Assembly (NCBI GenBank): GCA_034687125.1
Contig: JAQGBZ010000163.1
Span: forward strand, 62,001-126,000
Source: Neelides folsomi
Taxonomy: Eukaryota; Arthropoda; Collembola; Neelipleona; Neelidae
Length of the DNA: 64,000 nucleotides
Direction: 5' to 3'
Position numbers and translations under genes: made by a program. Below the pieces are notes generated by a model. It did not search any database. It saw only the letters and a list, made by a program, of their open reading frames with translations, and was not told the DNA's origin. Shown one piece after another: positions 440 through 62,474 of the stretch (position 1 is the stretch's first letter; each line of letters begins with the position of its first letter).

Positions 440-3400
440 TTAAACGATGGTTTCTCCACGTCGCCAGGCATCTGTCCTAATTTGCTGCATTGTTGGAGGC
501 GGATTTGGATTTCTCGGAGGGAGCGGAGGTTGAGGAAATCCTCTCGAGTTGACTGATACCCGCGGATTCCTTGGGACAGGATTGACAAGGTGAGCCGAGT
601 TCAAATGCGGCTTTACTTCACTTTGACAGCAGAACCAGAAACAGCAACAGACTCTTTTGGCCAGCGATGTGAAGGAGCGAAAGGAAAACGTTGACAACAC
701 CCAGACACCTGAAAGAATGAGGGCGTTGAGGAATGAAGGCATTGAGGATGAATAATCTTGTTTGGATTATCCAAGGGACGCTTACCGGTAGTCAGCCCTG
801 CAATGAGATTCATGTTCAACCGAAGGAGAAAGATCTGAAGATTCGGACGATCTGCTCCTGACTCCCATGCTTCTCTGCCAGCAAGCTCATAGATCAACGT
901 CCCGATCTGTCAACAACGACACATTGCTTATTAACATTGCACATTCCACGACTCCACCAGATTTTTAATCTAAAAATACTAAACTAACTTTTAACTATTG
1001 GATTGCCTATATGTAAAATATAAAGGGGAAAACTTCTTAATTGTAGCTCATTCAATAAAACATAAACTAAAAGATCTAAACATTTTTTATCAAAGACATT
1101 TTTTGCCCAATAAAATGAAAAATGAGGAGACGAAAGAAAATACCATGAAAGGCATCTTCATCCTAAAATGATTAAGCTTTCGAAAATACTTAATAACTAT
1201 TCATGTAATGTAATTCTTTTAACTTTTCGATTATATTATGTTTTTTAGAATGACTTAAACACTTAAAAGTGTTTGAATCTTCCATTTAATTCTGAATATA
1301 AAATAGATGCATGCTAAAACACAATTACTGATTGCCTAGATTTGAGATTCTATTCGTGTTATGAAAAAGATAAGGATAGATTGCTCAAGGTATGTACATG
1401 GAACAACTGTTTGAAATGTTTAACTGTTCCAGAGGAGAAGAAAGAAACCCAGTGTACATATTTGGCTATACAAGTATGGAAATGTATAAAAACGTCTTTT
1501 GTGTTCTCCTTCTCACATAAATCTCTGGTTAAGTGGACGAGTGTCTTTAAGAGCTGAAGGGGCTCGAAGAGGTTCAAACAGACTCAAATGAGGAATGGTT
1601 ACTTGGCAGGCGATGGGCAGAGAATGGACCAGAGCGAAGATCTCGACTCGCATCCAAAGGCGGGAGCTTTCAAGAGCCTTCAACCGACTCGAAGGACTCA
1701 TCGAGTTGAGAATTGTCGAGGAGTGGAGGAGCACAGGAGCGTAGCCATTATTCCCATGGCTCATGCAGCCCGGGTCGCCGCTGGACGTTGACTTGCATCG
1801 GGAGAAAATGGGCTGGCGGGAAACAAGCCGCTGGATTAATCCCAAACTCACGAAGAAAACACCGAGGATGAGAGAGACGGAGAGGGGAACTAAATTGTAG
1901 AGTTTCAAGGCTTCCACATCCTATGTAAAGACAAGAACAAGTTAATTATTGATATTGATTGATATAACTTAAAAGCAGGGAGATTCTGAAAAACATGTTA
2001 GTAGTTCAAAGTGACTTTAAGAGGGTTCATTCTGAGGGCTTAATTGACGCCTCTTGGTTTAAATGCCAATCAAGTTTAAGTAAGAGAGACGCCTTGAGAG
2101 CTTTCCTTCTAATAAGGTCTCAAGGGTCCCAGACGTCATTTTGAATGTCAGGGTTGGAGATTAATGATTGACAGTGAGAGGGTCATTTATATCAACGTAA
2201 GTGTATTTATAAGCATCAAAAGGGGTTCAGGTAATGGGTATGAATTTGAGGATTATTTGTGACCTGGAAGCCGACGCCACAAATCCCCGTCAGCTCATCC
2301 GCGTCCACTTTCTTATGGACGAGGGCGATGGAGGTGATGAGAGACGCAATGCCCCAAGAGCTCAAATGGAACATTGACCATTCCCGCTGTTGAAGAGACG
2401 AGGCCAAGGAGGGATATTGGCTCAGGAGCCACGAGAGACACAAGATGACCCACCTGTGGAAAATCCATTTATTATTCCTTCAAACCCTAACTTTAGCCTC
2501 TTAGGTTTGAGGAGACAGCAGGGAGCTGAGCTCACCTTTTCCCTTCCATCACTCATAGTCATATCTAGCTAGAACCGAAGACAATGAGAATCCCCTTCAA
2601 TATTTTCAATTACCTTCAACGGGACTCAACCCTATTTGCCCTTTTCCGTTTTCACCCTTAGATTATAAAAGAAGCTTTTATTCTCTTATCCCTAAATCCT
2701 ATTATCTCTTTCAAAAACATTATATCTATCAACTGTACATACATATTGTATCTTCAGATTCATTTACGGAAGCTCTCCCAACAATCAGGGCACATTTACC
2801 CGGAACGGAGTTGATCAAACCCTAACTTCAACATGTGCCAGCGGATTATTGTTTGCTTCTTTTCACGTAATTTTCAATTATCTATCTACATGCACAGTAA
2901 ATCTTTTGTATTTTAAAACAAATCCTTACCAAAAAATGGCTGCAGACCAGAAAAAGTAAGTAATGAGGAAGACCAGGGCGCACACTGAAGGAATGTGACC
3001 GCCAGCAGGGAGAAGATCCAGCCCTGTGCTCTTGTCATAAACACAAGTAGACGTCGTTGACCCAACGATGACTCCAATACTGTACATGACCTGGCACAAG
3101 GCTAAATACAAAATTGGTCTCTCAGCCGCACTCGATTTCTGAAAAAAATCATACAAAAACTATTTAATAAGATTTTTATTTAATAGGTAGTAGAGTAATT
3201 GTAAACTGATTTTAAATTATTTTTTCCATAATATACAATATACCTATTTACCTATGTATATGAACATAAATATTAATAAAAAATAATAACCAATGCATTG
3301 CTGACTTAATAAAGATTATGAATATTATTACAAGGAATCATAAATATAACTAACCCTATAAGCATTACAATACAAAATACGTTTATAGTATGATGAGTGT

Positions 3401-6400
3401 GTTCTGATATACTCTATATTTGCATTTATATTATGCATATATGAGATATTCCCTATCGATTATCAATCTCTAAAAAATCTCAATTTTATTGGAAGTAGAA
3501 ATCTAAATAATAATAATCTCTTTGAGTTTATGCGGCTATAAATTAAGATTATAGGGGAGTAGCTGGAGAAGGAGGAGTGTTGGAATGTGTGTACAAGAGA
3601 ACAAGAAGAGATTCCGGTTCTTTTTATTCCTTTAATAATACTACAAACCAGACACATTCGCGTTCCTCATCAGCTCTCAAAAGTCGCCGGTCTCCTTTGA
3701 GAAAATCTGATAAAACGAATGAGGAAACGGCGTAAGGATCGGCGAAAAGATGTTCCAACGAATGCAAATTCAAATTACAGAAGAGGAGAAAAAAAGATGA
3801 GTATCGCGAATCTCCCCCACGCCCCTGAAACCATAAAGGCGTCGGGATAAGACGACGTTATCGCTTTTTACGTCCAACTTGAAACCACAGCTCTCCACTT
3901 TACAAATGCCCATCACAAAGACCAATTTCCATCATCATCTCTCCATCATTTCCCCCCGCAAATATGTTTACAAAGTGGAGAGGCGAACGATGTACGTGAC
4001 GGTAGGCTCAATCAAAATCTCTTTACACACCATTAGAAAAAGATGACGAGAGTCACGTAAGAACAGAAAACTCACAGAAAAGAGTCATCGTAATAATACT
4101 CTGCCAAACATCCAAGGTTTATATGGGTCTGTCTATAGTATTTTATGGATTCGATGGAGTGCAATTTTGTTAATCGCGATTCCATGCCGTGCCACTGACC
4201 GCTCTAATGCGGGTCTGACAAGTCTCAAAAATCTATAGAAAATCTGGAGTTGTGGTAATGTAGAGATGAAAAGGAGCCGCTGCGGCTTCTGCCGACAAAC
4301 AAATACTACAACCGCACATCCATTATATAACCTAAAAACCAGGTAATACACCTTAAACAAATCTTTAGAATCAAACTCTAACAAAGAATGCGGATCTTTC
4401 AATCCAATAAACGAGAGACTAATTTATGCAAAAATTCTACTATTTAATACTATAGTGTAATATACTGTTTAATAAGGACTCATATTTTAAGTTGGCTTTA
4501 TGAATAATGATCAAAGTTCAATATTTAAAAAAATTACTTACAAGTGAACAAAGCGAGAGAAGAAGTGCAATGACGGAGGACGAGAGAGACAAAATGGCCC
4601 ATAAGAGCGCGTAACTTCTTGCAAATCCTTTTTCACTCTGAAGATAAAGAGATTCTTCCGAATCGCCGCATTTAAGCCAGCAACGATTCTTTGTGAAAAT
4701 CCATCTTCGATGGCATTTGCCTTCAACTTCACTCACGCCGATTTTCCCGCCCCGAAGAACGGGTTCTTTGTGGCGTGGTGGGAGAGGGTCGAATGCAGGA
4801 TGAGATGGGTGAAGCACCGCTCCAGGGATTTGATGAGGATCAAGACCGTAGCCTTTTGAAAAGATCTGATGAAGTGTTTGCTCATTGACCGGGCGATGGC
4901 CGTGAGGATGAACCTCAGGCAGGGGAACATGATTTGACGATGGGATTTGTGGAGGCATTAGCGGGCGGTGTCGGATCGGCTCTTCTTCAGGCCCATCAAT
5001 GCACATCTGCTCATGTTTATTCTCCGGGTGAAACTTGCTACAGTTGAGGTTTTGAGGCCATTCGAACCCAAACTCCTTCATGACGGGTTCGCATCTCAAT
5101 CTCACAGACTCACAGAGGGAACGGCACGGGCCTATATTTGTAGACAAACAAATAGAAAAAATACACATGTTAATCTATCTTTAAAAACTGTTCCAGCTGC
5201 AACTGAGATTTCGGAATCAGGCTAGCATAACAATATTGATTGGGTAAATAAATAGAAAATAAAATTGTATTGAAGTAAATTCAATAGACTTCTTTCATAG
5301 AACAAAAGTTACAATATTACCAGAATGTGATTTATTTTACACACCACATTGTTGGATACAATTATTAAAATGATTTTACAATATGAAAATTCATAAATTC
5401 GCTAACTAAGTGATTGAAAAGATAAATGGAAAAATATTGTTATGCGTAGTGTAATATTAAGAACAAGAACTCATATTTTATAAAGGGAAGTTATTATGAT
5501 AGTTAATAAAATAATGAAATGAACCACATGGTGCATTTACTTTTGAACAACATTGTTATAAATTGGATTTAAAAACTGGATAAGATTCATACCATTGGAA
5601 AAGAAGAACTGCCATAAAGAAATAATTATGATAGTTAGGTTCATAAAAGTTTTGAAGAAGTGTTCTGGAAAATGGGTTTTGAAAGTCAACAAGGTAATTA
5701 TGGATGTGGCAATGAGATTAAAAGGAGCAATAAAATTTTAATCAGGGAACTTGGAAGTGAAAATCCTCATAAGAAATAAGTGTCCTATTCCAGCAGCATT
5801 TCATTTCAAAATAAATAGCCCATAAGAATAAGAATAACCTCATAAAATAACTACTGATATCATTACATAACAGTAGTCCAAAAAAGTTGAATAACTTAAA
5901 TAAGTTAAATACACTCTGCAGGTAATAAGTATTAAATGGTAATAAAGTTAATAACCTATTTATGTAAAGTGCATCAAAATAAAATAAAATAAATAGGGTA
6001 AAAAAATATAAATAAAAACATTTAAGTATGTGTATTTAAAAGCAAGTACTGTATAATTAAAGTAGTGGAAACTTACCAATTGGTTCAGGCACCTTGTCAG
6101 TACACATGGGCACATGGGCAGTACAAAGAAAAAGTTTCAGATTCATCGAACAGCCGTATCTAAAATAAAAAAGGAATTATAATCACATTGTTTGAAGTTA
6201 AACGATGTCAATCAATCTCCTTAACTTGAAAAGTAAAGTTGTAAATAGAAATCTTGGAAGACAGCGGATGGGTTAAATTAATAATCCTGAATGAGATGGC
6301 GAAAAATTGAAGGAATGACCCCTTCAGTTCCCCTCATTACTGTCAAATCCTCTTGAAAGTACCAGGGGGTTAATCGTTATTCTCCCAACTAATCTCAAAC

Positions 6401-12591: not shown

Positions 12592-13195
12592 TTATAATGT
12601 CATTCTTTTTTTGCTTTTCTTCATTAAGTAATGCGCTCTTTTCTCGCGATTTCTCTTATTTTCTTCATTTCTTTTAGCACCCGATACAATAGCTACACCA
12701 TCTTTTAATAAACGTTCAATAGGGACCTACATTAAAGTAAACAAACATTTGTATAACTTATAAATAATATAATATAATTGGTTAAAAAATATAATTATAA
12801 TTATAAATTTAAATTGTAATTAATTAAATACCTGATTAGGAATCCTTATTCCGCGAATGCTTTTTCTTTGAAGAAAGAAAAATTCAAAATATGATTTTTC
12901 ACCATTTGGTTTCCTCAATTGAACATGCTCCATCGTTAAGTTCATGAAACTGTAAAAGGATATAGTTATTAGCTTTAATAAAATTTAATTAAATATTAAG
13001 AAAAATATATTATATACTATTTATATTATTACATTGTTTATTAAACACTTACCAATCAACACTTGTTATTTTCCCATAAATACAAATCCCAGTCTTCAAT
13101 TCAATTACAATTCCTTTATTAACAAGTCCGATCAAAAGAGGAGTAAGACTCCTTGAAAATATTGCTCGTTCTCTGCCTCCAACACATAATGCCAT
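12592..13195 (-). CDS. LSM10: U7 snRNA-associated Sm-like protein LSM10, 131 aa
   Basis: Sm-fold subunit of the U7 snRNP, which replaces SmD1 and takes part in 3' end cleavage of replication-dependent histone pre-mRNAs in the nucleus. Three exons (13053-13195, 12832-12949, 12592-12726) total 396 nt in phase. The start MALCVGGRERAIFSRSL aligns with human LSM10 RERTISENSL. The Sm1 motif gives the D-x-F-M-N signature as DCFMNL, and RGIRIPNQV matches the Sm2 region. The tail is rich in Lys, Arg and Glu, longer and more basic than I recall for the human protein. It lies 675 bases beyond the end of the PRPF39-AlkB gene on the same strand. SmD1 is the main alternative, but there is no GR-repeat tail. 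Confidence 0.85.
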
Positions 13196-13869: not shown

Positions 13870-16800
13870 TTATAAAATTGTTCTGACATTATCACAAAAA
13901 ATTATTTTAGGTTTATGAGGTTTTGGATTTTCTTTCTTTTTAATATTGGTTTTAGCTTCATCAGAAGAAGAAGCTGTTTCCACCGGAAGTTGTTCCTTTG
14001 TCGAGTCTGAGTTATTCTCTTCATTAAGAATTATTACTTCAGGGCTTGTAGGCGCTTTTTCTAATGATTTCTCTTTAGGTCCTATTTCAGTCTTTGATGC
14101 TTCAATACTAACATTCTTTTTAATAAGCGACTTCTGGCTATCTTCAACTTTAGAGTTTTCGCGAACCGGTGGTGTTTCGACAGGTAAAGAATTTGGAGAT
14201 GTAAGAATTCCCATTTTAATTTCTTCCTCGCTAACATTTTCAATAGCATGAACAACTTTGAGGCAAATGTATATGGTCTCCTCTTTGATTGATGGATCTT
14301 TCGGAAACTGAAAAAAAAATTATTATTTTTGTAAAAAATGAAATGATAAAACTTACTATATATCTGGATTTTAGTAAGACTCAAATGAACACTCACTTGA
14401 TGAACCCAATCTGCTTGAGTTGCTCCTTCCATTAGAAATAAACTTCCAGCATCAAGCGGCATTCGAACAAAATTGACATTCTGACCTCGTTTTTTCAATT
14501 CAATGGTTCGCTGATTCCCTTTAATTTAAGAATTGACTTTTAAATTTTTGTAAATCAATAAGACTTGTTTATTTTAACAGTTTAATTTAAATTGTAATTC
14601 TACCTAATGTTATGCAAGCAATAGGAGGATTTGATCCTAATGTTTTATCAGCTTCAGTATGCCAATAAATAGAATCGTGACCCGAACGAAATAAGTTGAG
14701 GAAACAACAATTGAACTCACATTTAGTTAATTTGTTAACCCTAAAAAATTATATCAAAATGACATTAAACGTTATTGAATTTAATTAAATAATTTATAAA
14801 TGTTGAAATACTTAATGCGAAATTCATTTTAGAATTAAATTTTTATGATCTTGCCTATGAAGGAGATCAATAACTTCCCGAGGCCAATCTTCACATGCTT
14901 TTAATGTCATTCCACTGTAAGTGAAATTGCATGGGCCAAGCCACGAAACAAGTCGATTAAGATGCCTCATCCTTCCTTGATTGGTCAATACTTGTTTTTG
15001 ATGCCATTTTATTCCACGACGAATTGCGCGAAACATTTCCTAAATAATCAATAAATAATTTACATTATATTGAAATATATTACTATATTACATGATCACA
15101 AATATTTTAATACCAAAATGTATTAGAAAATGTTAATTTTTATAAATTTACCGTATTGCCCTTCATTGAAAAGAACGATGGCCAATAGCGAATGTTCGAA
15201 AATCCTCGTATTGTATCACTCAGACATAATTCTCCTCCGTCTTTGACAAACGCCTCTGGTACATTAATCGCAGCAGATAAATTAGGAAGACTGTTTACAT
15301 CAATTGGGGCCTAGAAAAAAATAAAATAATTTTTTTTATTTTTAAATAAAAGATATATAAAATAAAATTGATATAAAATAAATTTTTAAGTGCTCTTAAT
15401 TTATTATATTATTACCTGTAATCTTATAACATTAGATTCATCATGATTTGGAATATACGTTGGACCCCCAAGGTATCTTTCAAGGCATGCATTTCTCGGA
15501 GGAATAAGATAAAAAGGAACTGGCGCTTTCTGATCAAGTCTCATCTTTTTAGGAGTTGAACTTTCATAATTCTCATCTTTCAATTCCTCTGGTATTCCTC
15601 TGCTTTCCAATTTCTCATATTCCTTTTGGGCCATTTCCACCCTCAGTTTCTGATCAGGATGTCTTGAGTCATAACCATAGTTAGGGTTGGTGTTTAAGAA
15701 TTCTTCAGGTGGAGCAACTTTCTTGTAAACTTCAACAACTGGACCAAGTTGACCAACCTCGGTTATTTCATTATAATTGGCGCCTTCAATGGAGTCAAAT
15801 TCAATTGGAACTGGATGTTGTTGGTTTTCACCATAAGAAGGAACAGGAAAAGCTTGAAGGCACATTTGACTTTCCCTTTCTTTTAATTTCCTATCAAATT
15901 CTTTCCATTTTTCTTCTTCTTCTTGCTCTTTCTTAATTGTTAATTCAAGTTGGTGGAGTTCATCTAATGTATCACGATATCTAGATTGAATAAAATTATT
16001 ATTTTCAATGTATTTTAATGTACATTTCCTAAATAGAAATATTTATACAATGGTTAATTTATAAAAAGAATTTTCAATATAAATTACATGTTCAATTAAT
16101 TAATTATAAATTTAGATCTTAAAAAAATTATGTTAACTGTATAATGTAACAAAACTCACCTTCTTAACTCTCCATGTTCCTGTAGAAAAAGAACTTTCTT
16201 TTTGAGAAAAGAAAGTTTCTCTTGATTGCTCAATGGAGCCCTTAAAAGTGCGAGGTCAAGAGCAGCCACAGCTCCTTTTTTATCCGAAGGATATCTCGTG
16301 TAACAAAGTTCGTAAACGTAATTATAAAGATTTGGATTTCCTTTGTCATTTTTAATTGCTTTTCGTAGTGCTCCCAGTGCTTTATCAGTTTTTCCACATT
16401 CCTAGTAATTGAATGTTTATCATTATGTAAATCGTATTAAAATTATCAATTACTTGTAGAACATAAACAGTTGAAAGTAAATCAGCCAAAAGTTATAAAT
16501 TTTTATATTGAAATATCAAAGTGGAATCACCTTATGAAGGAATCTTGAAAATTTAAGACTTAAAATTGAGAATTCTTCTTTTGACTTCACTCTTGAAATG
16601 AGTTGTTCGTAAATTTGAGTGACTTCATCATAGTTCCCGATGCGACGTTCGAGTTCTATAAGTTGAGATTTTGCAACGAGTAGATCAGGATACCATTTCA
16701 AGACATGCAAGATCAACTCCCTTGCTTGTTCCACATTTCCTATTACGGATTCATGAAATGAACATTTTTAAACAAGGCTTGTAAAAATGAATTCATTTCA

Positions 16801-19800
16801 TGCCATTTTATCAAAATCCCTGAAAGAAAAATCTCGAATTTTCCATTTTAATTATCATGACCAAAATACATTACAATTTCAGTAAATGACTTACCGACAT
16901 AAAAAAAGGAGGATTAAGACAATTATTATTGATATTATAAATATCAACCAAAAAGAAATTACCAATTTCCTCCTCGAAGGCTGCCCATTGAAGCCTAATG
17001 GCTGGTTTCTTTGGACAATGAACAATGGCTGCTCGTTTGTAAACATCTCGAACGATCTCGTGCCATTGTATGGTAGGAATTGGGAAACTAGGGATGTTGA
17101 GAAAAGCGAAGAAATCGTATTCTGGGACTTTTTCTTTGGGGGGTAAAAATTCTTTATATTTGGGTGGACACTCAGAAGAATCTGAGTGACCACTCAAATG
17201 TTTTCGTTTTCTAGGTTGACGTTGGGGACTAACGCGTCTTACCATTTCTTCACTTTCACTTCCACTAATAATATGATTTAACTGAGAGTCTCCAGAAACA
17301 ATATTAAGAATCGATTCAATACATTCTTTTACATCTTCCTCGTCATCTTCAGCTTCCTCAATTGTATCAATAATTTCAGAAAGGAGATCGGAAATTGTAT
17401 TGATGAGAACTTCCTCTTCTTCAGTGTCTTTCTTGGAAATTTCAACACTCATTTTTGCCCTTTGGAAATGAAATGAAATTTTGGGAGAATTTGGGTCTCG
17501 GAAATGCGTTTCAAGGTAGCGAGCATATTTGCACCAAAAATATTCATATTGAGCACAACTAATCAAACACCTTTCGAATAACAAAACAATTCTGTCGAGG
17601 TTCTTTAGGGAAATTTCATAGTCAAGATATTCTTCCCAATTTCTTATATCGCGGACGTCGAGAAGTTGAATGTGAAAATAAGGTCTTTTGATCTAAAAGT
17701 GATTTAATAAAAATATTAAGATAACATAAAATCACAAAATATTTGTTTAAATGAAAGCTTACTTTATCTTCAAAATCCCATCTTTTGTCCGTTTCAAGTT
17801 CACATTTATCATGAATTTTAGACAATTTGCCAACCAATTTATCTTTCAGGTAAGTCATAAGTTGATCTTCTGGCTTGGTTGTTTCATAAATTTCTCCAGG
17901 TTCAATTTCTGGCTCTTCTTTGTATTTAAGCTTAAGTATTTTGCAACCCTTTCTCCGATATAACTCATATTCATCATGTGATAAATAATCTCTGGGATGA
18001 TGATCACGAATTAAAGCCTTTAAACTGAAATAAAATGATTAATCAATCAACTAAACTTCATTGCTTTAAAATTAGTAATATTTTATCATTCGTGGTTTTT
18101 ATATTACTCATCCCAATGTCGATTGTAAAGCCTTGTTGGAGTTTGAATAAGTCTTTTATAAATCGAAAATGCATTTCTTAATTTCTGGCTTCTCATTTCC
18201 CATTGAATGTAAGATTCCCAAATTGCATCACTTCTAAATTCCATTCCGACTGTCTTCAATGCTTTTTCATATTTCCTTAAAAATTGATTCATATTAAAAA
18301 ATTTACAAGATTTACAACCCAAACACATATAAGTTGGCGCTCTCACTGGTTTGTAACAAATGAGAGAGCTCGCCAACTCTTATGAGGTTGGGTTGTACAT
18401 AAAAATATATTTTATAATTCAATTTTGTTAAACATTCAAATTGTGCTTTTTATATCTTCTTACTTTCTGACAATAAAACCGTAATTTGGAAGGTGTGAAT
18501 TTATTTCTGAAAACAAGGTGATATATGACAGCCACATATCGACAGAAAGAGGAATAAACTCCAAACCGCTTTCCAAAATCTTCAATGATCTAAATAAAAT
18601 GAAGAATTGATTAAGAATAACAAAATGTAATTTTTATATCAAACTGCAATTACTCAAATCACCTTTGAACAAAATGATGCATTTTTTCGAGTTCTGCAAA
18701 TCGTTTCCAATAACCAAAACAGTATGGGAAAAGAGGAAGAAATGCACTATAAGCTTTTCGGCATTCATCAAGACTTTCCTGTAAAAAATATAAATAAGTT
18801 ATATAACCTAACAAAGGTAGTTAATACAGATATAATTATATACCTAAATAAATTTTATTTATCAAAATTAGCTCACCTGCAATTCAACGTTTCGAATAAG
18901 ATATGTCCATCTATTAAAATCATGCGGATCATCTTTGACATAATTCCAAAATTCATTCAAAGTTGTGTTATCGTTAATTCCAAGATTTTCTGCTGTAGTT
19001 GACGGGACTATTTCCATTGGAAGCGGATCATAAGTGACTTTTTCTGCTTCTTTCATTGCCCTTTTAGCAGCTGCTTCCATTGCCTGTTTGGCCCTTTGAG
19101 CAAGTTGAGCCAATTCAATGATGTTTTGATCAACTTCCATTTCTTCATCTGGAACAATGGGGAGACCAAATTCCAATCGTTTGTCTCCATAAGGCTCAGC
19201 TGCTACAGAATAATGATAGACGCGATTGTAATCTTTATAAAATTCAGCTATTGAGTTTCGTTCGTCAACTGGTTCCGTTTGTGACGAGACAGGAATATGT
19301 GTTTGAATGGTTAATTCGGATTCCTTAGGTTGGTCAGCTTCTGAAGGATCATTAGCAGTCTTTATTCCAATGCTCGCGTAAAAGTCTTCAGTCTCTTTAG
19401 TGTCCATTACACGTTCTTCTTTAGTCTCATCTTGTTTAATTCGATCGTCGAAGATTTCTCGCATACTTATTGGAGCATTTTTTGCACCGCCGATCGACCG
19501 GACTAAATCTGCTACGGAGTCGGCATTATTTTCTTCGATAACTACTTCAGGCGGCTTTTCACTCGTTTGTTCCTTTGAGTTTCCCAATTTCTCGAGAAAT
19601 TCAGCTTCACCCTTTTTGTTCTTCTCGAGGATTTTGGAGGCTTCGATTCCGTATCCATAATTGGGTGCCAAAACAAGGCCATGAGAGTCTTCATTGCCAC
19701 CGACTGTGCTCAGAAGCCCACTTTCTTCAGAAGGATGGACAAAGGAATTCTGCAAGTGCAAAATTCCTGTTTCTGACAGCAGTGGTTTAACCTTTCGATT

Positions 19801-19809
19801 TTTCGGCAT
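13870..19809 (-). CDS. Prpf39: PRPF39 (U1 snRNP HAT-repeat) protein fused to an ALKBH3-like dioxygenase domain, 14 exons, 1463 aa
   Basis: Exons: 18877-19809, 18663-18778, 18464-18589, 18108-18275, 17763-18024, 16963-17692, 16531-16739, 16160-16401, 15416-15980, 15152-15310, 14855-15039, 14604-14740, 14397-14518, 13870-14307; total 4392 nt, in phase throughout. After an acidic N-terminal third come HAT repeats that match PRPF39 closely (EFWNYVKDDPHDFNRWTYL, LFERCLISCAQYEYFWCKY, LQWAAFEEEIGN). PRPF39 supports U1 snRNP and 5' splice-site choice in the nucleus. An acidic and Arg/Lys-rich insert of about 110 residues splits the repeats. Residues from about 1115 on resemble ALKBH3: FTYSGMTLKACEDWP, MEGATQADWVH. 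The iron motif is H-T-E instead of H-x-D, and both cofactor arginines are replaced. A charged tail of about 110 residues ends the protein. The intron at 14741-14854 is GC-AG. The alternative is two adjacent genes, but the AlkB part has no start codon of its own before residue MKGNT. Confidence 0.85.
18313..18397. repeat. 85-bp imperfect hairpin inside an intron of the PRPF39-AlkB gene
   Basis: The arms begin TACAACCC and end GGGTTGTA. They pair through AAGTTGGCG with CGCCAACT and CTCTCA with TGAGAG, leaving a loop of about 15 bases. It lies in the 188-bp intron between 18276 and 18463. The size and shape fit either a MITE-like element or a pre-miRNA-like hairpin; nothing in the sequence decides between them. 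Confidence 0.7.
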
Positions 19810-20813
19810 TTTAAATCTAGAAATTAAAATCCGTTTTACTCTAACTCAACTCAATATTAATTAAAATTACAAGCTAGTCATAAACTAACTAAAATATAAT
19901 TATTTTAGAAATCACACCAGTCAGACCGAGTCGCGGGACGTTTGGCATGTGAAAAATTGATTTTCAGATTTTCCCTTCTTACTTTTTTCATCAGAAAATT
20001 AACCGAACATCATCAACAACATCACAATTTACGTTAAATTTTATTCTTGGCTTTAATTAAGACTTATTACCAGTTAAACCATTAAATACTTTAAGAAATA
20101 TCAATCTTGTTAAAGTTACAAAAATTCGACAATTAATTATGACATTAATTATAGGTTTTTGTTTGAGATTTCATTTGCTTGATTTGACTTTCTCTACGTT
20201 CATTTTAGCGCCTTATCCAAGCAGTGCTTTAGACTTGGCTATATTTGGGGCATATAGACATAATGGTTTAATGCTTCCTTAAATAGCTTGTTGGATTGGG
20301 TATTTCGGTAGCATCCAACGTATGCTGTTAGCATGATTTAACATTTTGATACATAAAAATAAAATATTATCTAACATTTTCTGATTAATAAATACGTCCA
20401 TTAAGCTCCTAAAATTGTTTTTTAAGTTGTTTAACCTAACCTCTTAAACTTATGTATATCAAATTAACCGAAAATACGTAAATTATACTGAATTATGTCG
20501 CTTATGTAAAATTGTATCTTATATGTAACATAATTTATATTGAATTTGGTGATTTTATGTGACCTATGTAATTATGCGTTTCGGTGTAAGACTTTGATGA
20601 TAGATGATTTCATATAATCATATTCATTATTTGAATCGTTGGCAGGAAGAGGGAGGATTAGATTAGATAAATTTTAATGTTATATTAATTTTACTTTTAA
20701 CTTGTTGTTTATTTTACATTTTACACCCTTCAAAAATTAAATATGACTATAATAAATAATTTTCATAAATATCAAAGTTATCACTTAACCATATTCTTTT
20801 AAACATATACCTA
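19810..20813. other. Upstream region of PRPF39-AlkB, no gene seen
   Basis: About 1 kb of AT-rich DNA. The first 200 bases presumably hold the promoter and 5' UTR of the gene on the minus strand, but I see no distinct TATA box. No open frame with protein-like composition was found on either strand. Confidence 0.5.
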
Positions 20814-20898
20814 TGTACAGAGTGGGTCTAAAGTCGCCTCAGATTTTTTAATCCTTGGTTTCTGAATGTCTGAAGCGACTTTAGACCCACCCTGTACA
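20814..20898. mobile_element. MITE-like hairpin element, 85 bp
   Basis: The arms TGTACAGAGTGGGTCTAAAG and its near-exact reverse complement flank a short AT-rich middle; they agree at all but a few positions over about 30 bases. The terminal TACAGGGTGGG resembles the ends of the mariner-like element at 60.2-60.7 kb, so this is probably a non-autonomous relative. No coding capacity. Confidence 0.8.
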
Positions 20899-20940
20899 TT
20901 TAATTTACTCCTTATTTATTGGCAAACATTTACATAATTG

Positions 20941-21180
20941 ATATATGTAATATCATTGTTAAGCGCTGTATTTTACTACATGAGTTCAATTTAATTGGCA
21001 ATAATGATATTATCATTGTTAACAGATATATTTTACTACACGAATTGCATTTAATTGGTTGTAATGATATGTTCATTGGTAAAAGCTATATTTTCCTACG
21101 TGAATTGTATTTAATTGGTAACTTTTATATTTCATTGGTAAAAGCTATATTTTCATGACAAAAATCTTTATAATGATTGG
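20941..21180. repeat. 60-bp tandem repeat, three full copies and one partial
   Basis: Units start at 20941, 21001, 21061 and 21121, with an exact 60-base register. Each contains ATCATTGTTAA-like, TATTTTACTACA-like and TTTAATTGG-like blocks. The repeat creates a false 79-aa open frame. It begins 42 bases after the MITE-like hairpin. The copies differ at several positions, so the array is not very recent. Confidence 0.85.
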
Positions 21181-21976
21181 TCGGTGAAAATATAAGCCAA
21201 TATTATATTGAACTTGAGATTTAGTCTGAATATTTTGATTAATTTTTTATTTCCCCTAAATTCATTAGTTTCTTACATTCATAAAAATTTCATATTTGAT
21301 TTTCCCATTTAAATAACTACTACGACTGTATAATACTAATACGAACAGTTGTCCTTCAATTTAAACCTTTTCAGATAGAATAAATAATATTGGGAAGCGA
21401 ATTTTAAACACACCAAGCTCATTTAGTTTTTTTATTGACGGTCATTACTTTTAGATTTCGAATCATGAATCCAATTAGAAACATTGAAATTAAACATTAT
21501 AATTTATAATGGTAGTTTTATATTAACATTCATTCGTTATATTAATTCGGTTCTTTTTCTGAATAAAAACCATTTTGATGATGACTTGTAAATATTTCAA
21601 TGTTATAATAAAATAACTTAAATTACCTCACATACCTATTAGTATGTATATAGTATTATACCTACTCTCTATATTAACAGACCAGAGCTCTTGCCTGTTA
21701 ATATTGTCCAGCCTTCATCATTTCAGCATTATAATAATAGAAAATTGAGCTGAACAACGGGTCACGAATTCTTCTTGATCAATGCTCACGTTTTTATATG
21801 CTCAAACGTCTATAAAATAGAAATATTTGGTGTGTGTCTTATATTTATTTTATTTTAATGCAAATAGGTAAATAACATAAAGTCAACTCATCGCATGGGA
21901 AATTCAGTATAATGATAAAGCAATACCTTACAATATTAGATTTATTCTCATCATTCACAGAATAATGTCAAGTACT
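21181..21976. other. AT-rich intergenic stretch, nothing recognised
   Basis: Low-complexity AT-rich sequence between the tandem repeat and the serine protease promoter. No open frame, repeat arm or RNA motif stands out. Confidence 0.5.
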
Positions 21977-21984
21977 TATAAATA
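21977..21984 (+). promoter_or_regulatory. Probable TATA box of the CUB-serine protease gene
   Basis: TATAAATA lies 123 bases upstream of the preferred start codon at 22100 on the same strand, in a slightly less AT-rich setting. Transcription would start near 22005-22010. Confidence is limited because such octamers are frequent in AT-rich DNA. Confidence 0.4.
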
Positions 21985-22099
21985 ATGAGCGGAAAGAAGA
22001 ACTTTCCATTTAATTCATTTGATCTAAAACCATGATGAAGTCAGGATGGATTTGATCCTTGGATCATCATCCGCATATGAGCCAATCATTGGAGAATCC

Positions 22100-25059
22100 A
22101 TGATAATTTTCTGGTTCTTTTTCGTATTCGTTTCTCCCGAGTCTCTTCGTCCCCAACTCCCTTCTCAACTCTTTGGTCTTCCAATTCGATCAACTTGGAT
22201 TTTGGAGCCAGCGGGATTAAAATGCGAAGGAGCATGCATCAGCAGAAAAGGTATTACTTAATATAATAAGGAAAATCAAATTGAGTCTCAAGGTTTTGCT
22301 TTCCCTTCTTTTCACCTATTTGATTAGATATTTATGATTTCATAAGCTGTAAATACAGTGAATACTGAAATGGTGTACATTCGATATTATGCCTATATTG
22401 TATTCATCATTAAATTGGAACAGATTGTGAAGCTGCTGGTGGCCGTTCAAGTGGAACCTGTGTTAATGAAAGATTTTGCTGTCGATGTATGTTTATACTA
22501 TATTAAACTTCATAAAAATGTTACGAATTTTATTATGATATTTTAATATTTTAGAAAATAATGTTTCACATTACTTGTGAATTTGAAATAGCAAAATAAA
22601 AAGAATATTTTGTCAATAATCTATGCTAAAAATGAGATCATTGGTTTAACAAGCTTGCTTAAATCTTCATTGTAGATACATAATCAGTGAAGCTGAAATG
22701 TTAATGATATTTATAACAAAAAATAATGAATTCTTGTTAAATTATATTATGTAATGCGTATATTATTTCAGTTGAGAGAACTTGCTCGGGGGTCGGGAAA
22801 GAAAAGATCTCCTTTTTCGTTTCACCAGGATACCCGTCTCAAGTCAAAGGCCCTATCCATTGTTCAATGAAAATGGAAGGAAACTTCGCAGCGCTCAAGT
22901 ATCATTATAACTTATAACTTTATAACTAACCCTTATAAACTAATAAAATATATCTAATAAAATATGTACAATTTCTGACCTAATATTACAGACTTTCTCA
23001 ACTTATGTATTTTTCAATTTTGTATAAGTTTTAAAAGATTGAATTGAATCGTAATATAGACTGAATAGAACATTATTTACTTTTAAGAAAGTTTACTTTC
23101 ACAAATGAAATCTGACAATTCATTATTTACGTTTAATTTTAGGCTCGACTTTCTTGACCTTCCTTTTGCAGATGGAATCAAAGTGGGCTCAAGTGGGCAT
23201 ATCTGCCTTCATGATAATTTCATCATTTTGGGTGGATTGAGCGGACCGGGAGAAGGAATGTGCACAATGGATGGAATTTCAGGTGAGTAAAATAAATTAT
23301 TTGAGTTGAAAATCCGTTTTGACTCGAGAAGGAATTGTATTTTCTAAGCCGAAACAACCCATCACTTTCCTCGTCGTCTCCCAATCCAACGTCACACGTT
23401 GGAAAGTGAAGGTGAGTCAAGTGAGTGAAGAGGAAATCCAAATGATGACCAATGCTTTTAAAAGCCATGAAGGATGTGGAAGGCAATTAATTTTTGAGCC
23501 ACCGATAGTTAATACTTTTCAACTTAAAAAAGTAAACGAGAGGCCAACAAAAATCATCCCTCTCATTATTGGTGGAATTAATGCAGAGGGAAATGAATTT
23601 CCCTGGCAGGTTGATCTTATTAACTAACTTTAAGTAATCAATTGTACTGTTATTGTAAGTTTCAGATGTTTTATTTATATTTGATTTATGTAAAAGGCCA
23701 GCATACAAATCTTGACTGTTACAAAAAAATGGCATCATATTTGTGGAGGCTCTGTGATTTCTAATAAGACAATTATTACAGCTGCTCATTGTCTTGTTGG
23801 GTAAGGATTGTATAAATTTCAATTTATCATCTAATATAATATTTGTAGTTTCATTAGTAATACTTATAACTTGTGTACATTAAAACGGTTAATGAAATAC
23901 TTTTATTGATAGAAAGAAAAATCAATTTAATAAAACAAGGATTGTGTTGGGTTTGGATGATATTGGATCTGAGAAGGAGATCTATCATATTGAATCAATC
24001 ATTTCTCATCTTGAGTATACGGTTAGATATTAGATAATAAGATAATTAAATCTTAATTACCTATACCGTATATCTGTACCATATAATATAAATAAAAATA
24101 ATGCTTAAAGTACAATAAAAGTATACAGTAATTATGTATGGTAAGTATGGTACATAGTTTTAAAAAATTAACTTTTTATTGTTATTATATTGATTATTAA
24201 TTTGACTTTACTACTTTTGTATTTGTTTGATTAATTTTTCTTTAGCCAAGTCTTGCCTTTTTGAATGATATTGCCGTCATACGAGTCGTAGAAAATATTA
24301 AATTCTCTAGAAATCTTCTACCAATTTGTCTATTTTCAAAAGGTACTTCCAATGATTTTGACTTTATTGACTATATTTATGTTTAATTATTAAACGTTAT
24401 CAAAATGCTAATTACTTGAATAATAATAATTATAATTAACATTATTAACCCGTATCTCAACCTGTGTAAAATACCAAGATGTGATTGAATATGGTGAGGC
24501 GACCGTGAGTGGATGGGGGAGATTGAATGCCACCCAAGGAAATCCTCAAAATCTTCCTTTACAAAAAACTACAGTTAACATCGTTGAAACTAAAAATTGC
24601 AAATTGTATGAAATATCTGGAAAAGTCATTAACTATAATGTTCCATCAAGCCAATTATGTACTGTTTCTGCTAATTCAACATCCATTTGCTTTGTATGCA
24701 GTAACTCAACTTAAATTATATACTATAGAATTATATCTACTGATTTATAACAGAAATGTATTTCTTTTTCTTCGCAGGGTGATTCGGGTGGACGTAAATT
24801 ACCTAATATTTATTTATTATAAATACATAATAGATACACTATGTATATCAATTAATTTTAAAAATCTCTAAAAACTTGGATATTTAACTTATTATTCAAT
24901 TGAATTTATAAAGCATTGGTTAAGCGGAGCAGGAACGGCCTAATGGAACTCATTGGCATTGTTTCATATGGATTCAGTTCGTGTTCAACAAATCTCCCAT
25001 CCGTTTTCACTCGTGTTTCCAGTTTTGAACGATTCATAAGCTTAGCTGTACTCAAATAA
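22100..25059 (+). CDS. Secreted CUB-domain serine protease (S1A), 11 exons, 482 aa
   Basis: Extracellular chymotrypsin-fold protease. Exons: 22100-22250, 22424-22486, 22772-22898, 23143-23282, 23329-23609, 23697-23800, 23913-24021, 24246-24342, 24479-24693, 24778-24793, 24914-25059; 1449 nt in phase. Signal peptide, a small cysteine-rich segment (CEGAC, CEAAGGRSSGTCVNERFCC), then a CUB-like domain (SFFVSPGYP), then the protease from IIGGINAEGNEFPWQ. The triad is complete: ITAAHC, NDIAVIRV, GDSGGPLV. Ser at 189 (chymotrypsin numbering) and Gly at 216 suggest chymotrypsin-like specificity, but 226 is Ser instead of Gly. The residue before IIGG is Leu, so activation by a trypsin-like enzyme at the usual Arg/Lys is not possible at that bond. 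GDSGG sits on a 16-nt exon. CUB-serine proteases are known from crustaceans and other arthropods; the physiological substrate cannot be told. An in-frame ATG at 22046 is an alternative start. Confidence 0.9.
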
Positions 25060-25602
25060 TAATTAATATACCTCAAAAGTAAAGCGTCAAGCCGGACTCA
25101 ACGTCACCTTTATTATTTATTGTTCCTTTTGTGTTTATTTTGTAGTCACTTGTGATTTTTGTATTTAACCATATTTATTTAGGTCATTTGATGGTTTTAA
25201 ATAAGGTCAAAGCACTTCTTCCTCTTTGTTGACAATATTGCGAAATGACATGAGCTTTAATTAATAATTTAATAAAACATTTTACTGATGTTTAAAAACA
25301 TTTCATTTTAACATTGATTCTTTTAATCTTAATTTTTCTGATTTTTCCTACATAGAGGTCGAATCGGCAATAAATAGTTCATAAACATAATAATATTGTA
25401 AATAACCCGATACAGTGTATGAATTTTATTCCCAAATTAATTTGGTTTAATAAGTGGTAGGTGTATCCTTCTATAACATAACACATTTCTGTTTTGTACC
25501 TACTCAAGTTCATAATAATGGAATTGAAAGTTTATTGCGTCTTTCGTTAATACTATTTTTAAATGTTTCGCTCTTTTTACACATGTTATATACCTAAGTA
25601 CC
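25060..25602. other. Intergenic, 3' flank of the serine protease
   Basis: AT-rich sequence with the expected 3' UTR of the protease; an AATAAA lies near 25268-25275. No other feature seen. Confidence 0.45.
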
Positions 25603-25751
25603 TACTCTCGTTAGAAAGTTATCTCTTGAGTTCCCGCCTTTTAGAACATCATTTAGATAACGTTAATTTATATCTATCACAATTAAAACTAGTGTTAAAC
25701 TAAATGATGTTCTAAAAGCGGGAGCTCAAGAACTAACTTCTAATGAGAGTA
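25603..25751. mobile_element. MITE-like element with long terminal inverted repeats, 149 bp
   Basis: The left arm starts TACTCTCGTTAGAAAGTTAT and the right arm is its near reverse complement, running through CTTGAG, CCCGC and TTTTAGAACATCATTTAG. Arms are about 53-55 bases with few mismatches, around an AT-rich centre of about 40 bases. No coding frame. The family is not identified; its ends differ from the TACAGGGTGGG type elsewhere in the window. Confidence 0.8.
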
Positions 25752-26519: not shown

Positions 26520-26527
26520 TATAAATA
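26520..26527 (+). promoter_or_regulatory. Probable TATA box of the Methuselah-like receptor gene
   Basis: TATAAATA lies 97 bases before the first ATG and 154 bases before the second. The less AT-rich sequence that follows, with GATTTAGTTGAGC about 28 bases downstream, fits an initiator region. Confidence 0.45.
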
Positions 26528-26616
26528 TTCGTTGTATGGTAGAAAGTCGATTTAGTTGAGCTGAAAGAGTTGATCGAGTGTGAATCTTCACAACTCAAGG
26601 AAAGGCTCTACATAAT

Positions 26617-36970: not shown

Positions 36971-37600
36971 TTATCCGTAAACGATCCCAATGCCATAACC
37001 TCCATAACCTTTAAAACAAAAGTCATTTCAATATCCATTAAGAATGATTTTTAATTAATATTTTTAATTCAAATATTATAATAATGATATCATATAAATA
37101 TTTCCTTCATAAGAATTTCTCTATGTAATTATATTATAATTTACCTCCTCCATATCCACCTCCGTATCCTCCATATCCTCCTCCATATCCTCCGTATCCT
37201 CCTCTGTATCCTCCGTATCCTCCACCGTATCCTCCTCCGTATCCTCCTCCGTATCCTCCTCCGTATCCTCCTCCGTATCCTCCTCCGTATCCTCCTCCGT
37301 ATCCTCCTCTGTATCCTCCATAACCTCCTCCGTAACCTCCATAACCTCCATATCCTCCATGGTGGCGGGCTTCTCTCTCGTTGTCCATGCCCATTTCTCT
37401 TGAGTCACGCTTGGGGTTCTCAACTGGAGCTGTTTTATTCAAGGCTTCTACTCCTTTCTCTGCTGGTTTGACTTCGAGGGCCAATGCTCCGACGAGGACA
37501 AAGGCAGCGAACGCCAGAATTCCAAAAACCTAGAAATTGAAAAGTAATAGACAAATTATATACTTTCTCTGTTCATTTTAAAATTTGTATTTACCTTCAT
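36971..37600 (-). CDS. Glycine/tyrosine-rich secreted protein, 3 exons, 142 aa
   Basis: Exons 37595-37600, 37145-37529 and 36971-37008 total 429 nt. The first intron follows codon 2. The signal peptide MKVFGILAFAAFVLVGALAL precedes a charged propeptide-like segment (VKPAEKGVEALNKTAPVEN) and then about 70 residues built from GGYGG and GGGYGGGY units, ending GYGIGIVYG. Similar glycine-rich proteins in arthropods serve as cuticle or eggshell parts or as antimicrobial peptides; which applies here cannot be told. At the DNA level the core is a 12-bp repeat (CCTCCTCCGTAT on plus), and a frame-shifted reading gives an equally long but false Glu/Asp/Thr-rich frame. Confidence 0.85.
37145..37370. repeat. 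12-bp coding minisatellite in the glycine-rich gene
   Basis: Tandem CCTCCTCCGTAT-type units, with variants at single positions (CTGTAT, CATAAC), encode the GGY repeats. The best-conserved run is about 37205-37320. Such arrays tend to change copy number by slippage, so length differences between individuals are likely. Confidence 0.85.
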
Positions 37601-51016: not shown

Positions 51017-51804
51017 ATGGAATTGCTGGCATTGCTCATCATTGGCCTTTTTTCAACATTCCTTCCAAATTCGGTGAGTTGCCTTCAGTTTCAATTAGAA
51101 CCTATTCAATTTCCGCACATGATAATTCAATTATACCCTCAATTTATTATTTCCAATTTTTTACTTTCACATTTACAAACCAAATCAAGATTTTAATAAA
51201 AAAAATTAATGATTTTTAGGAGTCGGTCCCTCTAAACAATGGTAAGTTGGCGTTAATCCCTCTAAAAACAATTATGTATTCGCACATTGGAATGATTTAT
51301 CAGAACATCCGCGTGTTCGCCGAGAAGAAAATGGCAACAAATTAGAATTCTCCATTGACGTGATTCCTTCTGAAGTCGGATCTCTAGCACACAATGCAGG
51401 TTCACATGGAGCTGACGGAGCTTCAGCTCAAGATCAAATCAATTCCTTGAGTCGAAAGAAACGAGATCTCTTCGGATTGTTCGACCATCCTGAATTTGAC
51501 ACGATTCAAGAAAGAGTTCATCACAGAAACAGGAGATCTGCATCTGAATCAGAATCTGAATCAGAATCAGAATCTGGATCTGGATCAGGATCTGGATCAG
51601 GTTGGGATTATTATTTATGATGAATTGATGAATTGAATAAATTCAAGTGCTTGAAAACATAATAACTCCATTTAAGATTCAGGTTCGGAGTCTGGTTCTA
51701 CTTCGGAATCAGAAAGTGAGGAAGAACCACCAGCAAAATCTGAGAGTGGCTTTGTAGGAATTGTACCTGCACTTGTTTCTACTCTAGGATTAGGAAAGAG
51801 ATAA
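51017..51804 (+). CDS. Secreted Ser/Glu/Gly-repeat protein, 4 exons, 167 aa (paralogue 1)
   Basis: Exons 51017-51073, 51220-51241, 51304-51600 and 51677-51804 (504 nt). Signal peptide MELLALLIIGLFSTFLPNS, then EHPRVRREENGN and a dibasic SRKKRDLFGLF that suggests furin-type processing. A run of SE and SG dipeptides (coded by a GAATCT/GGATCA hexamer array at 51541-51600) follows, and a C-terminus VPALVSTLGLGKR. The next gene has the same order of parts, an equivalent tiny second exon, an RVRREE motif after it, a hydrophobic LGLG end, and TTGAATAAA just after the stop. The acidic serine repeats may be phosphorylated or glycosylated. I do not recognise the family; a secreted mucin- or matrix-like role is inferred. 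Confidence 0.75.
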
Positions 51805-52708: not shown

Positions 52709-54559
52709 ATGGTTGGTAATTTAGGGATTGTTTTGCTCGTCTTCAGCATTTTTTTGACCTTTGCTTCCAATTCGGTAAGCAATTTCATCATCTGTTATAT
52801 GATCATATATTGTAGTTTGAATTTGGCATATTTAATTAATTTATAAATATTACTAGCAATCCTCTAAAAGTAAGTATTTAGAATAATAGTATTGGTTGAA
52901 GGTCAAATGTAATTTTTTATATTTTGTAAATCATATTTTTTCTTATTTTTGTATTTTTAACAATTTTCAGAATTCTGTATTCGTCAAAATTTGTAAGATT
53001 TTTATATTAGTGTATTGGTATTATATCTTATCGGTCTCACAAGTATAATTAATAATATACGATATTTTGTTGAAGTTGAAGACGTTGGTGTAAAAGACCA
53101 TAAAGAAAGCATTCGGGTTCGACGGGAAGAAGGAGGGAAAGAAAAACGATTTCCAATCAACACCAATCCTGCTGAAGATAGAATTTTGTCTCAATTTTTG
53201 AATTCTTTCGGATTTTCATCTCTATTAAGAGATGACTACGTTCCATTAATTGATCGAAAGAGAAGGGCAATCAACCAAAACATTCTCAATGAACAGGTCA
53301 AAAGTAGAAGCAAGCGTGGCGTGGGCGATGATCGACAAAGCCGAATGCGAGGTCCCTCACTCGCAGGGGACGACGGAGCCGATCCATTTGCGGTTATTGA
53401 AGCTGAAGTCGCCAATGCAACTCCTGCACCAACGACAACAACAGAAGGTCCAAGTACTACCTCAACTTCTCCGCCTTCGATGCAATCTCCACCATCCCTA
53501 CCAGATGCACCAGCTCAACTACCGGCCCCAGATGCATCAACTCAACCCATTGCACCACCAGCACCAGTACCAGTAAAGAAGCGGCGTCTTAAAACAAAAC
53601 CAACGACATCTACACCTCCAATTCAAACGCCAGCTCCACCCGAAGAACCTGAACAAGGTGGAAGAGGAATGGATTCTCCAGAACCAACTGCAGCCACTTC
53701 GGAAGCTACTTCAGAAGCAACTTCGGAAGCACCAACTACTTCTGAACCTCATGAAGAAGCACCAAAAGCAAAAATACTTGATGTACTAGAACCTGAACAA
53801 AATATGGCAACTACAACTACAGCACCACCAGATGGTTCACAGGTTCCAGCAAAAGCTCCTGAAGAACCGAAGAAAGAAGGTCGTGGTTTTGGTTTGGATG
53901 TTTTATTAGAAACAACAATGCCGTCTGTTTCAACTGAAATGCCAACGATGGGAACAACAATGACTGTTTACACAACTGACGGTGAAACGAAAACTTCAAT
54001 GGACACAACGAAATCTTCAATGGGAGCTCTTGGGGGCTTATTTAGAATGGCGCATGAAGCTAGTACAGAGACTTCAGTAATGCCTTCTTCGGGAATGCCT
54101 TCATCGGAAATGCCTCAAACGTCAACATCAGCTAAGCCGGATGGAAAGGGGAAAGATAAACCACATGGAAATGGAAGAGGATTCGGAGATGAAGAAGAAG
54201 GAGACGACGAGGAAGAAAGTGAAGATGATGAAGAGACTACAAGTGCTACAAGTGAAAAAGAAACGACGCCGGGTTCAAACGAAGATGAAGATGAAACTAC
54301 AACTACAACTACGAAATCTCCCAAGAAAAAGACAAAAAAACCTGCTCGTAAAGAGGAAGCTTCGGAAGCTGAAGAGGTCAGTGAGAAAGAGACAATTACT
54401 GAAGAAGAAGAAATAGAAACCGTCAACAGGAAAAGGATTTATAGATCAACAACTACAAAGCCCAAACCTAGCCCTGAAAAAAAGCCATCAAAGAAACCAG
54501 CAGAGAAGGGATTAGTTTCTAATTTGGTTGCAGGTTTAGGCTTAGGGTTTGTAGGCTAA
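52709..54559 (+). CDS. Secreted mucin-like Thr/Pro/Ser/Glu-rich protein, 3 exons, about 520 aa (paralogue 2)
   Basis: Exons 52709-52774, 52857-52869 and 53076-54559 (1563 nt). Signal peptide VLLVFSIFLTFASNS, then ESIRVRREEGGKEKR, as in paralogue 1. Dibasic sites DRKRRA and SRSKRGV precede a long low-complexity region: TTTTEGPSTTSTSPP, repeats of EATSEATSEA, Pro/Ala stretches, acidic blocks, and KKKTKKP. It ends in VSNLVAGLGLGFVG. Thr/Ser/Pro content predicts heavy O-glycosylation, so a mucin or extracellular matrix component is likely. The 13-nt second exon is inferred by analogy with paralogue 1; a possible alternative exon from 52971 cannot be excluded, but the main exon is secure. Many shadow frames on both strands arise from its repeats. 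Confidence 0.75.
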
Positions 54560-60964: not shown

Positions 60965-62403
60965 TTAATAATCACATGTACAAGCACACTTAGGTGGCGG
61001 ACCATTTCCATTTCCTTTCACTTGAGTTTGCACTGGAGAAGATCCTGAAGATCCTCCATGAGATGAAGATCCGTGAGAAGTCGAAAAGCCAGAGCTATGT
61101 TGACCACCTCCGCCATTATTTCCGCCACCTCCGCTCTTGTAATTAAATCCATTTTGGTTCTGTTGTTGTTGTTGCTGATTATGATGTCCATTTCCATTTC
61201 CATTTGAAGGTGGATCCGTGTCATTTGGACCTTGAAAATGAACATTTCACTCTTCAAACTTCTGCTTAATCACTTTATTTATCGAGGAAATCTCCATTCA
61301 ATGCTTAAATGGAATTTTTTTTATCATACGTTTAACCAATTCACTAGTTTATCAAAACATCATACATATCTTGCATACTACAAACATAGACGCTTGAGTA
61401 CACGTACTTACATGGCAAAAATGTTCATAATTAATTAATTTCCAAATTGTAAAAAATTCAAGTTATACAATAATAGTTATACTATTAGTTAGTATTAGAA
61501 AATAAAATACGAGTGTAATTGTATGGTACAATTCCATTTTTCAGATTTTTTGTGACTTTACCAAAAAATCGGAAAATTTGTATAATTTTTTATCTTTATA
61601 TAATTAGCACACCTGTATGATTTTTAATATGACTAAATGTAAATATTAATTATGTGTTTAATGAAAGTAAAAGAGTATTAAATACCTAATCCACGATAAA
61701 CATTTCCTCCAAGATCCTTGGACTCGCATTCCATCGGGAAGGAAGCTCCGTTCGCAACATTCCCACTGAATTCATTGTTGCATCCCTTGACATAGAGTCC
61801 ATGGTTTGCCACATTGTTCTTCAGCTTGTATTCTCTTCCTTTTAGATCGACCTCCCCGTTGGCAACATTTCCTTCAAGCAGTCCACAACAACTCTCTTCG
61901 GAAATGACAATGGCCGGAGTTTGAATATTCACAGAGTTATAATAAAGTTTATTTTTACTTCCTTCCAACAGAATTCCCGTTTCAGCTTCGGAAATGACAC
62001 AGCTCTTCACCGTGTTCTCCTCACCCTTCACAACAATTCCTTGTCCTATTCTCTGAAGGACAATTCCTTCCAAGGAGTTTTGATTCCCTTCAAGAAGAAC
62101 TCCAGTGATTGGGCCTTTGATCCAAAAGCTCTTCAATTTCCAATTATTTCCTTTGATCGTGAACCCCGTCCCTCCTTCGCTCATTATTGTAGAGTTGACA
62201 TCGCCAGTGATGGTCATCGGCCCATCTCGATTGGCAAAGAATTCACCCTGGTATTCCTTCGGGAGCATTTGAATGGTCGATCCAATTGGCGCTGTGTCCA
62301 TTGCGTTTTGAAGCTCAGCTTCTGAACCAACTTTGATGATTTTCTGTCCTTTGCCAAACCCGCAGGATATTAATATAGAAAAAATGAAGATGAATATTTT
62401 CAT
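60965..62403 (-). CDS. Secreted right-handed parallel beta-helix protein with Gln/Gly/Ser-rich tail, 2 exons, 327 aa
   Basis: Exons 61686-62403 and 60965-61230 (984 nt). Signal peptide MKIFIFIFSILISCGFG, then QKIIKVGSEAELQNAMDTAP, the usual opening of pectin-lyase-like beta-helices. About nine rungs follow, with the recurring pattern GxxxxGxxNxLxxxxV (EGNQNSLEGIVLQRIGQGIV, EGSKNKLYYNSV, KGCNNEFSGNVANG), as in NosD or carbohydrate-binding beta-helix proteins. The second exon gives a disordered tail with NGNGNG, a run of six Gln, GGGG and Ser/His-rich parts, ending in the cysteine motif KCACTCDY. No polysaccharide-lyase catalytic residues can be assigned. A structural or glycan-binding extracellular role is possible. 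The join at 61686/61230 is supported by good sites and phase. Confidence 0.78.
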
Positions 62404-62474
62404 TTTTCACTTGATAAATTAGTAAACTTTTGTAGGTATATTAAAATAATGAAGTTTAATAATGAAAATGGAGA

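Follow-up and report, generated by a model that had tools for sequence, protein, structure and literature searches.

Does the PRPF39 gene of this locus run on, by ordinary cis-splicing, into exons for an AlkB-family domain, or do two genes lie in tandem on the same strand? The locus lies on the minus strand of the window, the whole 64,000-nucleotide stretch of DNA analyzed here. The reading favored below, with a probability of about 0.68, is a single cis-spliced nuclear gene that would encode PRPF39 with a C-terminal ALKBH3-derived, probably non-demethylating binding module, joined to it by a linker of about 200 aa.

Gene model and domain composition

The joined gene model runs from 19809 to 13870 on the minus strand, in 14 exons, and keeps one continuous frame of 4440 nt, corresponding to 1479 aa and a stop codon. 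A sequence-only reading of the same DNA had proposed 14 phase-keeping exons; the joined model bears out their number, strand and limits, while the coding length given there, 4392 nt, was wrong, being 48 nt too short. Twelve of the 13 introns are GT-AG and one, intron 11 (14741..14854, donor TAG/GCAAGA), is GC-AG, with intron lengths of 70-223 nt.

Exon 1 (18877..19809) encodes an N-terminal region of 311 aa, most of it ahead of the HAT repeats, the first HAT match starting at aa 286. The N-terminal HAT module of PRPF39 is encoded by exons 2 (18663..18778), 3 (18464..18589) and 4 (18108..18275), all three matched by both Pfam and a solved chain. Exon 5 (17763..18024) lies between and into the HAT modules and is matched by the solved chain. 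The C-terminal HAT module is encoded by exon 6 (16963..17692; Pfam and solved-chain match), which carries an acidic insert, and by exons 7 (16531..16739) and 8 (16160..16401), both matched by the solved chain. In exon 9 (15416..16028) the HAT homology ends and the greater part of the linker follows; the exon is open up to its donor. Beyond intron 9 (15311..15415) the AlkB domain starts in exon 10 (15152..15310) and continues through exon 11 (14855..15039), which ends in the GC donor, exon 12 (14604..14740) and exon 13 (14397..14518). Exon 14 (13870..14307) encodes the last AlkB strand followed by a tail of approximately 125 aa in which charged residues and serine are abundant.

In the 1479-aa product, the Pfam families HAT_PRP39_N (E 2.9e-62) and HAT_PRP39_C (E 7.2e-50) both scored above cut-off. 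The HAT part matched residues 85-608 of the solved PRPF39 chain 6g70 (670 aa) with an E of 6.3e-95, a match ending near aa 951, about 22 residues into exon 9. The family 2OG-FeII_Oxy_2 was found at aa 1173-1338 with an E of 5.4e-17 (63.1 bits, the cut-off being 31.2). From about aa 1161, 194 query residues of the AlkB part matched the ALKBH3 chain 8jnr (1.1e-28, 103.7 bits); ALKBH2, which belongs to the same fold family, gave a weaker match, the best of its solved chains scoring 44.9 bits. The HAT and ALKBH3 matches are far beyond chance, and by the domain test the predicted product belongs to the PRPF39 family. The earlier assignments of these parts to PRPF39 HAT repeats and to an ALKBH3-like domain are supported by the Pfam families and by the solved chains, among which ALKBH3 is the best relative of the AlkB part. 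Between early exon 9 and early exon 10, the linker gave no Pfam match up to an E of 0.1.

PRPF39 is a metazoan U1 snRNP-associated HAT protein whose yeast counterparts are Prp39 and Prp42. The product described here has the same two HAT modules, but differs in the 285 aa that precede the first HAT match, in the acidic insert of exon 6, and in the linker and AlkB domain added at the C-terminus.

Codon usage was trained on exons 1-9 and the three frames were compared. The modeled frame was best for exons 10-14 taken as one set (0.05 bits per codon, versus -0.49 and -0.67), for exon 10 alone (-0.11, versus -0.45 and -0.55), for the codons of exon 10 that precede MKG, and for the tail of exon 14 (0.17, versus -0.47 and -0.96). 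When exons 9 and 10 were left out of the training, the modeled frame was positive in 6 of 6 exon 9 blocks. Exon 10 scored -3.0 bits over its 53 codons and +2.4 over the first 28, the latter falling slightly short of 2.9, the 95th percentile for 2978 stretches of 28 codons without a stop at 20001-30000 of the window. In absolute terms exon 10 has a weak codon signal, which counts against the fusion, and homology is the stronger argument for this exon.

The junction between the PRPF39 and AlkB exons

Intron 9, the fusion junction, is 105 nt long and 91% A+T, has an in-frame stop as its fourth codon, and contains two AATAAA motifs. Such features would also fit a PRPF39 that ends here, with an intercistronic region after it, and they weigh against a single gene. 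The splice sites were scored across the gene region with leave-one-out models built from the other 12 introns. The intron 9 donor, CAG/GTAATA, ranked 8 of 233 GT sites and the acceptor 7 of 346 AG sites, and both sides of the junction are in phase 0. Had PRPF39 ended at the stop codon, the chance of finding such a donor within about 30 nt of it and in matching phase would be roughly 1-2%, a hand estimate from GT density, donor rank and a factor of 1/3 for phase.

These sites bear on a two-cistron arrangement, which the sequence-only reading had raised as a trans-splicing alternative. PRPF39 would end three residues into intron 9 and be polyadenylated there, and a spliced leader added at 15310 would give the AlkB cistron its 5′ end and its start codon. 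The short A+T-rich gap, the AATAAA pair and the strong acceptor are in keeping with this. A strong acceptor is expected under cis- and trans-splicing alike, whereas trans-splicing has no need of a donor, so the strong phase-0 donor that ends exon 9 favors cis-splicing. Two AATAAA motifs are not unusual at 91% A+T; the motif is present in 2 of the 12 other introns as well, introns 1 and 12, and by itself says little. Moreover, the next downstream gene on the minus strand begins about 675 nt away, at 13195.

Start codons were also considered. The exon 10 ATGs at 15300 (+1), 15264 (+1) and 15227 (+2) are out of frame, and the first in frame, at 15166, is the M of MKGNT, which follows RYWPSFF and lies inside the ALKBH3-aligned segment. 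As claimed earlier, then, no start codon precedes RYWPSFF in frame. The AlkB exons therefore cannot easily start alone, and in a two-cistron arrangement the leader itself would have to supply the ATG. Across the window, no Rfam family, spliced leaders included, matched at gathering score, and no tRNA was found, although a leader gene could lie elsewhere. Upstream of PRPF39, an acceptor-like site, ATTTTAATTTCTAG (19817..19830, minus strand), stops 7 nt short of the ATG; another, with a higher score, stops 79 nt short of it. Either could mark a 5′UTR intron or a trans-splice site, and the pair fits a spliced leader or, equally, a 5′UTR intron. On the sequence grounds of donor and missing ATG, the two-cistron arrangement has become less likely, though the features of intron 9 still suit it; overall it is considered unlikely.

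The AlkB exons might instead belong to a gene of their own that overlaps PRPF39 and is driven by a promoter within it, in which case no fusion protein would be made. The in-frame ATGs of exon 9, for example the MRLDQK codon near the exon end, could start a shorter product. Alternative first exons were sought at 19900..15417 as ATG-to-donor stretches in phase 0 with a donor score of at least 6, a region that leaves out exon 9's own donor. Among the 14 candidates, 13 begin inside PRPF39 coding exons, as an internal promoter would allow; the only one found outside them is 6 nt long. In addition, exon 9 is open from the HAT homology to its donor, so that a full-length PRPF39 spliced there would still be the fusion. 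A separate overlapping gene is accordingly very improbable.

A further alternative is that both forms are made. Retention of intron 9, or early polyadenylation in it, would yield a 1136-aa PRPF39 with VII as its last residues, and the fusion would result from splicing, so that attachment of the AlkB domain would be regulated. The in-frame stop just within the intron and the AATAAA motifs are consistent with two such forms. However, motifs of this kind are common in A+T-rich introns, as the two other AATAAA-bearing introns illustrate, and the two-form reading is regarded as quite unlikely.

Taken together, fusion of AlkB to PRPF39 by cis-splicing is the best reading of the junction. The continuous frame, the domains and the phase-0 junction of the gene model support the PRPF39-AlkB fusion proposed earlier.

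Active site of the AlkB domain

Bacterial and archaeal genomes were scanned with an alignment of human ALKBH3 and the AlkB domain as query, and 75 pattern matches led to 45 relatives. Forty-four of these were aligned; the remaining one, L044, had no long ORF and was left out. The human protein and the 44 aligned relatives together have 35 columns conserved at 95% or more, and the AlkB domain deviates at 13 of them. At five positions (ALKBH3 numbering), human ALKBH3 and 44/44 aligned bacterial relatives agree on Y181, D193, R269, N271 and R275, where the AlkB domain has F, E, T, Y and K. N179, H191 and H257 are retained.

By sequence the AlkB part descends from ALKBH3, yet it departs from the enzyme family at two signatures. 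The first is the iron triad HxD...H, which reads HxE...H here, whereas human ALKBH3 and all 44 aligned bacterial relatives have HxD. The second is N-x-Y with R-x-N-x-x-x-R, of which the first N is kept, while Y has become F and the Arg, Asn and Arg have become T, Y and K. Exon 12 encodes N-x-F and H-x-E in place of the human N-x-Y and H-x-D, and the Arg/Asn/Arg positions fall in exon 14. The second metal histidine is present in exon 13, within MEGATQADWVH. The domain is 31% identical over 191 aligned residues to ALKBH3, an AlkB-family 2OG/Fe(II) demethylase, with which it has the MEGATQADWxH segment and the two metal histidines in common. It differs by Y181F, D193E, R269T, N271Y and R275K, by being joined to PRPF39, and by the charged, serine-rich tail beyond the fold.

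We take R269, N271, R275 and Y181 to be 2OG-site residues, and the disappearance of all three residues of the Arg-Asn-Arg set speaks against a normal use of 2OG by the domain. An HxE metal site can bind iron or work in some oxygenases; iron binding here could thus survive, and activity of the domain is conceivable. H191, D193 and H257 are the residues reported as mutated for a catalytically dead ALKBH3 (PMC12494543). The AlkB fold itself would be kept, since the MEGATQADW segment is conserved and the alignment spans the length of the fold. The idea that the Arg motif could be restored by a frameshift in exon 14 was also considered and rejected. The +1 frame, RRPYTFA, aligns worse with ALKBH3 and lacks the second Arg, whereas the main frame, HQFPK...IYICLKVV, aligns better as judged by eye.

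An active demethylase was downgraded on account of the five residues, identical in the 45 comparison sequences (human and 44 bacterial) and changed here. The demethylase-type role implied by the sequence-only reading, which did not mention these changes, is weakened, since the metal-binding Asp and the R-x-N-x-x-x-R segment are among them. The domain is degenerate and probably does not work as a regular demethylase. One possibility is a pseudoenzyme that binds nucleic acid or protein as a module on a U1 snRNP adaptor.

Origin of the AlkB domain

Human ALKBH3 was, by a narrow margin, the closest sequence to the AlkB domain, at 31.4% identity against 30.9% for the bacterial sequence L007. The bacterial AlkB-type relatives belong to the same fold family and are up to about 31% identical, but the 44 aligned ones retain the five residues changed here. 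In the MEGATQADWxH segment, the domain is nearer to human than to the six bacterial sequences compared there. In pairwise comparison, neither the identities nor this segment supports a bacterial origin or horizontal transfer of the domain. When viral contigs were searched, the AlkB part gave 1 pattern stretch and the HAT part 23, with no relatives for either. Fruit fly and Aedes are described as lacking ALKBH2 and ALKBH3 (PMC6849265). If the genome is that of an arthropod, the AlkB domain may be an ALKBH3 relic retained for another purpose.

Other features of the window

A two-exon gene for an Sm-like protein lies directly downstream of the fusion gene, at 12820..13195 on the minus strand. Its LSM domain was matched by Pfam at 1.6e-10 with the exons joined by eye, the first exon alone falling below cut-off, and we presume that it resembles LSM10. 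A Frizzled-type gene is located at 4518..5174 on the minus strand (Fz domain, 7.1e-10), with a sub-threshold Frizzled membrane match at 1513..1920. Neighbors of this kind suggest that the DNA is probably that of an animal. The minus strand also encodes a glycine/tyrosine-rich protein with GGYGGY repeats at 37134..37529. On the plus strand, a long low-complexity ORF (53069..54535) is rich in Thr, Pro, Glu and Lys and has RVRREEGG near its start; the neighboring ORF 51282..51608 has the similar stretch RVRREENG, and neither gave a Pfam match. The ORF at 61678..62406 (minus strand) seems to encode a signal peptide and matches a NosD-like family (Pfam NosD, 2.5e-07). The NosD family is named for bacterial copper-binding proteins, and a bacterial origin or contamination is possible for this ORF.

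Proposed working of the fusion protein

Human PrpF39 was reported to form a homodimer through its C-terminal domain and to contact U1C, like the yeast Prp42/Prp39 pair (PMC5648754). The same paper describes PRPF39 as coupling auxiliary factors to the U1 snRNP (PMC5648754). By analogy, the HAT part of the fusion would dimerize and bind U1C as known PRPF39 does, and each dimer would hold a pair of AlkB modules, on long linkers, close to the 5′ splice-site complex on the U1 snRNP. AlkB proteins act on methylated bases. With demethylation probably lost, the module here would bind either RNA, possibly N-methylated and perhaps at N1 or N3, or a protein partner. Such binding would help to recruit or stabilize the U1 snRNP on chosen transcripts.

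A more specific version is offered tentatively and is itself doubtful. In this lineage PRPF39 would have acquired ALKBH3 as a C-terminal domain that is obligatory; the domain would have lost its demethylase chemistry and would serve as a nucleic-acid reader that steers the U1 snRNP to particular transcripts. The fusion as a whole is modeled from the DNA of a single genome, which weighs against it. Literature on PRPF39 or Prp39 with ALKBH or AlkB, on fusions and on pseudoenzymes was also searched; no title or abstract opening among the matches listed describes such a fusion, though full texts might.

A single protein with both parts would tie base methylation, or an AlkB-type grip on nucleic acid, to the choice of 5′ splice sites. 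The reader would perhaps recognize N1/N3-methylated bases, in which case an AlkB 'reader' would be built into the splicing machinery. The changed active-site residues lead to a testable claim, that a protein can reuse an AlkB fold as a module without catalytic function. Provided that transcripts confirm it, the fusion would be an unusual way to build a protein, with recognition of the 5′ splice site coupled to an AlkB module that is probably non-catalytic.
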